Source: Ophiura sarsii
Taxonomy: Eukaryota > Echinodermata > Ophiuroidea > Amphilepidida > Ophiuridae
NCBI GenBank assembly: GCA_035610835.1
Contig: CM069455.1
Span: forward strand, 39,649,278-39,713,277
Length of the DNA: 64,000 nt
Direction: 5' to 3'
Position 1 is the first letter of the stretch. Each line of letters starts with the position of its first letter. Shown here in pieces: positions 23,623-63,871 of the stretch. A program made the translations under genes and the position numbers. The notes under the pieces are model-generated. The model ran no database searches, was not told the origin of the DNA, and saw only the letters and a program-made list of their open reading frames with translations.

Positions 23623-23865
23623 CTGATCCAAAACCTTCCAAACTAACCGCCACATTCAACGTCGGTGATAATGCACGGCTCAGAGTGATTCGCAATAATT
23701 TAATGGGTTTGAGGTGGATAAGAACGGCAAACGAAACAAATCTACGGCAGGGTTCCGACACAGATATTCTCAACGTAGAGGGCGTGACTGATGATGAAGT
23801 CTACGAGTCGTTTGTGGTGGGGAGAAGACACGAGCCACATTCTGTATTAAGACTTATTGTTAGAG
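23623..23865 (+). CDS. Receptor exon 1: Ig-like domain
   Basis: Starts in phase 1 after TTTTTCCACAG and ends before GTATGT in phase 1, 243 bases. Encodes KPSKLTATFNVGDNARL to HSVLRLIVR. It has no cysteine, so no canonical Ig disulfide. The end, LIVR directly abutting the next exon's EGF cysteine, resembles the second Ig domain of Tie receptors (from memory of that family). A phase-1 start means at least one upstream exon exists. Confidence 0.8.

Positions 23866-63871: not shown

Follow-up and report, generated by a model that had tools for sequence, protein, structure and literature searches.

The Tie kinases carry three FN3 domains, and Tie2 controls vessel stability; Tie is not known from protostomes. 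Among the receptor phosphatases, VE-PTP (PTPRB) has a long FN3 stalk. This R3 phosphatase acts on Tie-2 (PMC10815196), and R3 phosphatases have a single PTP domain. Here we analyzed a stretch of 64,000 nucleotides (the window, G000:C15:39649278-39713277) in the 1.57 Gb genome of the brittle star Ophiura sarsii. The protein encoded there resembles Tie1 and Tie2 (TEK) in its Ig-Ig-EGF-EGF-EGF-Ig-FN3 order, the DPYGC signature of EGF2 and a GEGGEG motif in the first FN3 domain, but it has tandem PTP domains rather than a kinase, 17 FN3 domains rather than three, and an Ig-EGF module that is 36% and 41% identical to those of two vertebrate Tie proteins. With the R2B phosphatases (PTPRM, PTPRK, PTPRT and PTPRU) it shares an Ig-FN3 unit, a membrane-proximal domain and tandem PTP domains, whereas it has an Ig-EGF3 block in front, far more FN3 domains, and no MAM domain among the Pfam matches of residues 1-525 and 1235-2124 of the first model or of the whole of its Amphiura filiformis relative, P0001. 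The long FN3 stalk, common to VE-PTP, had prompted an R3-like reading; this was ruled out by the tandem PTP domains, as R3 phosphatases have one and the window gene two. A sequence-only reading had held that no vertebrate receptor PTP class has such a layout, which is consistent with a review of receptor-PTP extracellular regions whose main text uses the term EGF 0 times (PMC10815196). Taken as a whole, the locus is probably best explained as an R2B-related single-pass receptor PTP with a Tie-type ectodomain, a putative sensor role and a proposed history of early sharing with Tie.

Gene model and phosphatase class

Between positions 23623 and 63871 of the plus strand, 32 exons with AG/GT borders are joined by 31 in-phase junctions into 2229 residues with 0 stops, encoding Ig, EGF, EGF, EGF, Ig, 17 FN3 domains, a transmembrane helix, a juxtamembrane part and the first PTP exon (Table 1). 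This bears out the phase-consistent series from Ig to PTP start in the sequence-only reading, as well as its two finer details: LIVR next to the EGF cysteine (RLIVR stands directly before the first EGF cysteine, across the exons ending at 23865 and starting at 24612) and DPYGCxCA in EGF2 (DPYGCTCAAG in exon 30165-30314). The exons at 54370-54460, 58936-58975 and 61165-61202 were initially chosen by fitting phase, and P0001 later matched them independently (E 8e-5, 0.20 and 0.25). P0001, labelled PTPRF-like with no mention of Tie, has the whole layout including two PTP domains; it matches residues 1-445 at E 2e-157 with 54% identity, and a global alignment over all 2229 residues gives 57.8% (36% to 85% per exon).

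Table 1. Exons of the receptor phosphatase gene, in window positions, with identities to P0001 and domain matches
Feature	Position	Strand	Match
Exon, second Ig domain (Tie Ig2 position), phase 1-1	23623..23865	+	49% to P0001; exon end opens the Tie2 match
Exon, EGF 1	24612..24749	+	69% to P0001
Exon, EGF 2, DPYGC signature	30165..30314	+	61% to P0001
Exon, EGF 3	34183..34323	+	67% to P0001
Exon, third Ig domain (Tie Ig3 position)	34836..35126	+	47% to P0001; with FN1 matches PTPRK and Tie2
Exon, FN3 1, RPGEGGEG motif	36556..36870	+	58% to P0001; Pfam fn3
FN3 2, two exons	37609-37676, 38037-38268	+	36%, 47% to P0001
FN3 3 to 12, one exon each, all phase 1-1	39235-39567, 40289-40585, 41178-41480, 42147-42437, 42826-43131, 44966-45259, 45771-46073, 46420-46719, 47371-47694, 48105-48398	+	49-68% to P0001
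FN3 13, two exons	48520-48662, 49972-50143	+	62%, 68% to P0001
FN3 14	50525..50812	+	61% to P0001
FN3 15	51105-51349, 51970-52042	+	FN3 15 and 16 exons 49-71% to P0001
FN3 16	52584-52690, 52845-53040	+	FN3 15 and 16 exons 49-71% to P0001
Membrane-proximal FN3-like domain, R2B type	54370-54460, 55450-55699, 58936-58975	+	PF23144 Fn3_PTPRU, E 2.2e-12; PTPRM 2v5y match through GDNKTY
Exon with transmembrane helix	59414..59537	+	45% to P0001
Juxtamembrane exons	61165-61202, 62625-62836	+	58%, 67% to P0001
First PTP exon (KNRYANIIA); remaining D1 and D2 past window end	63784..63871	+	79% to P0001

The gene extends beyond the window on both sides, so that the earlier extent of 23623 to 63871 holds for the exons and not for the gene limits. 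With P0001 as query, the first Ig exon was found at C15:39643523-39643879, 5.4 kb upstream of the window start (51.7% identity, E 1.4e-34); a signal-peptide exon gave no match in the 30 kb upstream plus the window. Downstream, PTP exons on the same strand reach about C15:39734080 and end in YVNYK and a stop, about 90 kb from the first Ig exon. The D1 motifs are intact (WPDMG and HCSAGVGRTG), although at least one short D1 piece was not found among the downstream exons; D2 has WPE instead of WPD, and its HCM-DGVSRTG crosses an intron. D1 and D2 occupy the place where a Tie protein would have its cytoplasmic tyrosine kinase, which the window gene lacks. A further protein of the same kind, P0013 (2112 residues), carries ectodomain and PTP parts on a contig that is probably a transcript, because it is only 7,686 bases long. 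Together with the exon phases and the predicted protein P0001, this suggests that the ectodomain and PTP exons belong to one gene.

Several parts of the protein bear on its phosphatase class, which for D1 is tentative. The last FN3 domain, number 17, is the membrane-proximal domain of the PTPRU/PTPRM type, and the top match of the last FN3 block is PTPRF. Against single-domain chains, D1 of P0001 scored 309 bits with PTPRK, 294 with PTPRT, 292 with 2nv5 (which we take to be an R2A chain) and 283 with PTPRM; tandem PTPRS/LAR chains head the list, with totals of 502-507 over two stretches.

Other features of the window include long, intronless and mutually similar C2H2 zinc-finger reading frames on the minus strand (877-2484 and 16632-17714; 536 and 361 aa) and, also on the minus strand, retroelement reverse-transcriptase fragments in two overlapping frames at 20281-21041 (PF00078). 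By eye, the introns hold a dispersed repeat with similar translations (51376-51618, 59560-59847, 63553-63774 and elsewhere), and a simple repeat with a short unit at 53600-54020 is open in several frames.

Kinship of the ectodomain with Tie and R2B receptors

Among proteins of solved structure, human Tie2 gives the best match to the region from Ig2 to the first FN3 domain (FN1), and this match is collinear (4k0v, E 3.7e-43); of the non-Tie chains, PTPRK comes first (1.7e-7). As this match is collinear and P0001 matches residues 1-445 so strongly, a chance origin is excluded. The earlier claim of a Tie-type ectodomain on a receptor phosphatase is therefore upheld by profile and structure matches on one side and the D1 and D2 exons on the other. 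Taken alone, Ig3-FN1 is equally close to PTPRK and Tie2: PTPRK matches over both domains at 3.3e-8, followed by Dscam (FN1 only, 9.8e-8), Tie2 chains (4.3e-7 to 3e-6) and contactin-2. Conversely, when the Ig3-FN1 part of five vertebrate Tie proteins served as a profile, PTPRK (7.1e-31) and PTPRM (2.3e-28) ranked behind the Tie2 entries and ahead of titin (2.6e-22). By these matches, Tie and the R2B phosphatases have an Ig-FN1 unit in common, and the window protein combines a Tie front with an R2B back.

A search with residues 1-445 returned 43 proteins, including receptor phosphatases of Amphiura, Patiria, Asterias, Lytechinus, Holothuria, Antedon, amphioxus and a crab (P0043), as well as P0013; the others included Tie kinases of vertebrates and Holothuria, Ptychodera P0012 without a PTP domain, and further proteins. 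The Holothuria Tie kinase as query gave 472 proteins, with Tie kinases of Amphiura, sea urchins, hemichordates and amphioxus among the 120 listed. The D-P-x-G-C of EGF2 is invariant in 23/23 rows of one alignment, and a few of the 55 rows of another deviate, the crab among them. In the crab phosphatase, D1 reads HCSNGIGWTG and the CX5R arginine is missing. The titles and abstract starts returned by our literature searches named no such protein; a sea-urchin phosphatase survey (PMC3045532) lies outside that scope, and the class may be in print. The "undescribed system" for which this locus was once put forward as a candidate already has deposited family members, under labels such as PTPRF-like and PTPRT.

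The sequence-only reading had also proposed looking for a Tie kinase gene in the same genome, and one was found at C1:145758356-145795976, on a different contig from the window phosphatase. With P0048 as query, it was the sole locus with Tie ectodomain exons among the best 30 of 2091 candidates, the other matches being kinase domains at 27-35%. Its pieces are 31-100% identical to the Amphiura Tie kinase (68-100% for kinase-domain pieces). The window module has 60% identity with that of P0001, compared with 48% for a Patiria phosphatase, 45% for a VWD protein of holothurians and 43% for the Tie kinase of its own genome, beside the values for the two vertebrate Tie proteins given above.

History of the module

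We built a first tree from 55 module rows (18 phosphatases, 19 kinases and 12 others, picked from 158 proteins), leaving out most vertebrate Tie proteins, Patiria P0006-P0008 and Asterias P0039, and dropping copies that covered <80% of the module, for example the second half of P0057. In this tree, which includes two long rows, vertebrate Tie proteins stand apart from the other kinases, and the branch of crab P0043 is very long (2.9). A second tree was computed without the crab row, a PKD-REJ-like row and one duplicate. One of its sides (92/88) holds all kinases except amphioxus P0056, together with the amphioxus phosphatases P0067 and P0071 and with P0045, for which no kinase domain is listed. 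Both modules of P0056, an amphioxus TIE1 kinase, fall on the phosphatase side. A single clade of all kinases was rejected (p 1.1e-6, for a group chosen after a tree was seen). The window module groups with P0001 (100/100) on the phosphatase side, and when the own-genome Tie kinase is added the support for the split between kinases and phosphatases falls to 76/82. The place of the window module among phosphatases, separated from the majority of Tie kinases by this weak split, disfavors a recent loan from Tie for this gene; the module would instead be an old branch beside the Tie kinases. The earlier proposal of one ectodomain type on both a kinase and a phosphatase holds as homology.

The amphioxus sequences could suggest that exchange has continued, with Tie-kinase and phosphatase ectodomains still being swapped and paired receptors reading the same ligand with opposite output. 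The kinase model P0064 and the phosphatase model P0067 agree at 80% of 797 positions (66-94% in blocks of 50 residues across residues 1-750) and are unrelated beyond the membrane, and the second half of P0057 is 62% identical to P0071 (46-86% per block); between the two pairs, BLAST pieces reach 32-47% with cytoplasmic parts counted in. In the tree, the two members of each pair come out as sisters (100/99), and the rejection of an all-kinase clade, tested after the tree was seen, points the same way. However, since the members of each pair are predicted proteins from different amphioxus species or a hybrid, the pairs may reflect annotation error or alternative splicing, that is, one ectodomain with varied tails; moreover, the P0057 row in the tree is the first half of that protein, and the kinase and phosphatase modules in the genome of the window are only 43% identical and lie on different contigs. 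We therefore give continued exchange somewhat less than an even chance.

With an Ig2-EGF3 HMM, the module was also found on holothurian VWD proteins, a PKD-REJ-like protein and crinoid proteins. Three holothurian proteins with the Tie-type Ig-EGF module (P0024, P0029 and P0033) are labelled zonadhesin or IgGFc-binding. This spread, and the fact that the window module is slightly closer to a VWD protein than to its own Tie kinase, could mean that the module is a freely shuffled cassette, so that finding it on a phosphatase would carry no particular message about Tie; yet in both Tie and the window phosphatase the module is followed by an Ig domain and a GEGGEG-bearing FN3 domain of one kind, and we regard free shuffling as unlikely.

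A phosphatase family and its possible role

The window gene had earlier been treated alone; the gene itself stands, but its lone status does not. Using the Tie-type EGF2 of Amphiura P0031 as query and scoring the best 150 of 407 candidates, we found at least 93 EGF2 exons with E <1e-9, 46 of them on C7, although some contigs may be alternative copies; on this scale the window's own EGF2 exon scored 9.1e-9 and that of the Tie kinase 5.3e-4. A D1 search (61/61 candidates scored) gave 49 matches, 34 with E <1e-4 and 15 weaker. Among the 150 EGF2 matches listed, a Tie-type EGF2 exon lies within 120 kb upstream on the same strand for 23/34 D1 exons, compared with 7/34 downstream and 3/34 on the other strand; within 60 kb these counts are 20, 4 and 0 of the 34, and for the weaker matches 4, 2 and 0 of the 15. 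Conversely, again among matches listed, a PTP exon follows within 100 kb downstream of 23/111 EGF2 exons (upstream 11, other strand 1). The remaining 88/111 have no listed PTP exon in that range; some of them may belong to proteins of other kinds, kinases included.

Two loci were inspected by tblastn (E 1e-3). Ig1, Ig2, EGF1-3, FN3 and both PTP domains were detected at C17:32540359-32589133, and the same set except Ig2 at C7:28786538-28818508; Ig3 and the transmembrane exon were not seen at either locus at this threshold. In the former, additional EGF1-like copies, partly broken, stand in a row between the EGF1 and EGF2 exons (G000:C17:32542759-32543923). The window gene is apparently one of about twenty candidate Tie-type phosphatase loci in this genome. 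That the ectodomain protein and the phosphatase are two neighboring genes is highly improbable and was rejected: the model is known from genomic DNA rather than cDNA, and relatives with no PTP domain listed exist (P0012, P0031), but a single open frame runs throughout with the transmembrane exon in between, P0001 spans both parts, P0013 has both on one short contig, and D1 exons repeatedly sit behind a Tie-type EGF2 exon.

The modelled protein is a single-pass receptor with an ectodomain whose N-terminal half is homologous to that of Tie kinases; inside, the motifs of D1 are intact and D2 has WPE. We infer that it may sense contact or a ligand and thereby place a tyrosine phosphatase next to phosphorylated receptors of its own membrane, possibly the Tie kinase among them. 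Early in animal evolution, this ectodomain type would have been common to receptor phosphatases and the later Tie lineage, with the phosphatase perhaps its older holder; the age argument, however, rests on a single odd protein, since P0043 has a very long branch and an altered CX5R motif. A fuller scenario, which we think less likely than not, places the Tie ectodomain first on an R2B-related receptor phosphatase, from which a kinase would have acquired it, with later re-exchange giving opposite-output paired receptors in amphioxus and a recognition family of about twenty phosphatases in brittle stars. We offer as hypotheses that the window phosphatase would counteract Tie, or that the two would have one ligand in common and answer it with opposite output.

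The Ig-FN1 link between Tie and the R2B phosphatases touches human proteins as well. With Tie and a phosphatase class of Tie-type ectodomain side by side in one genome, the question whether a kinase and a phosphatase can read one ligand to opposite effect can be approached directly.
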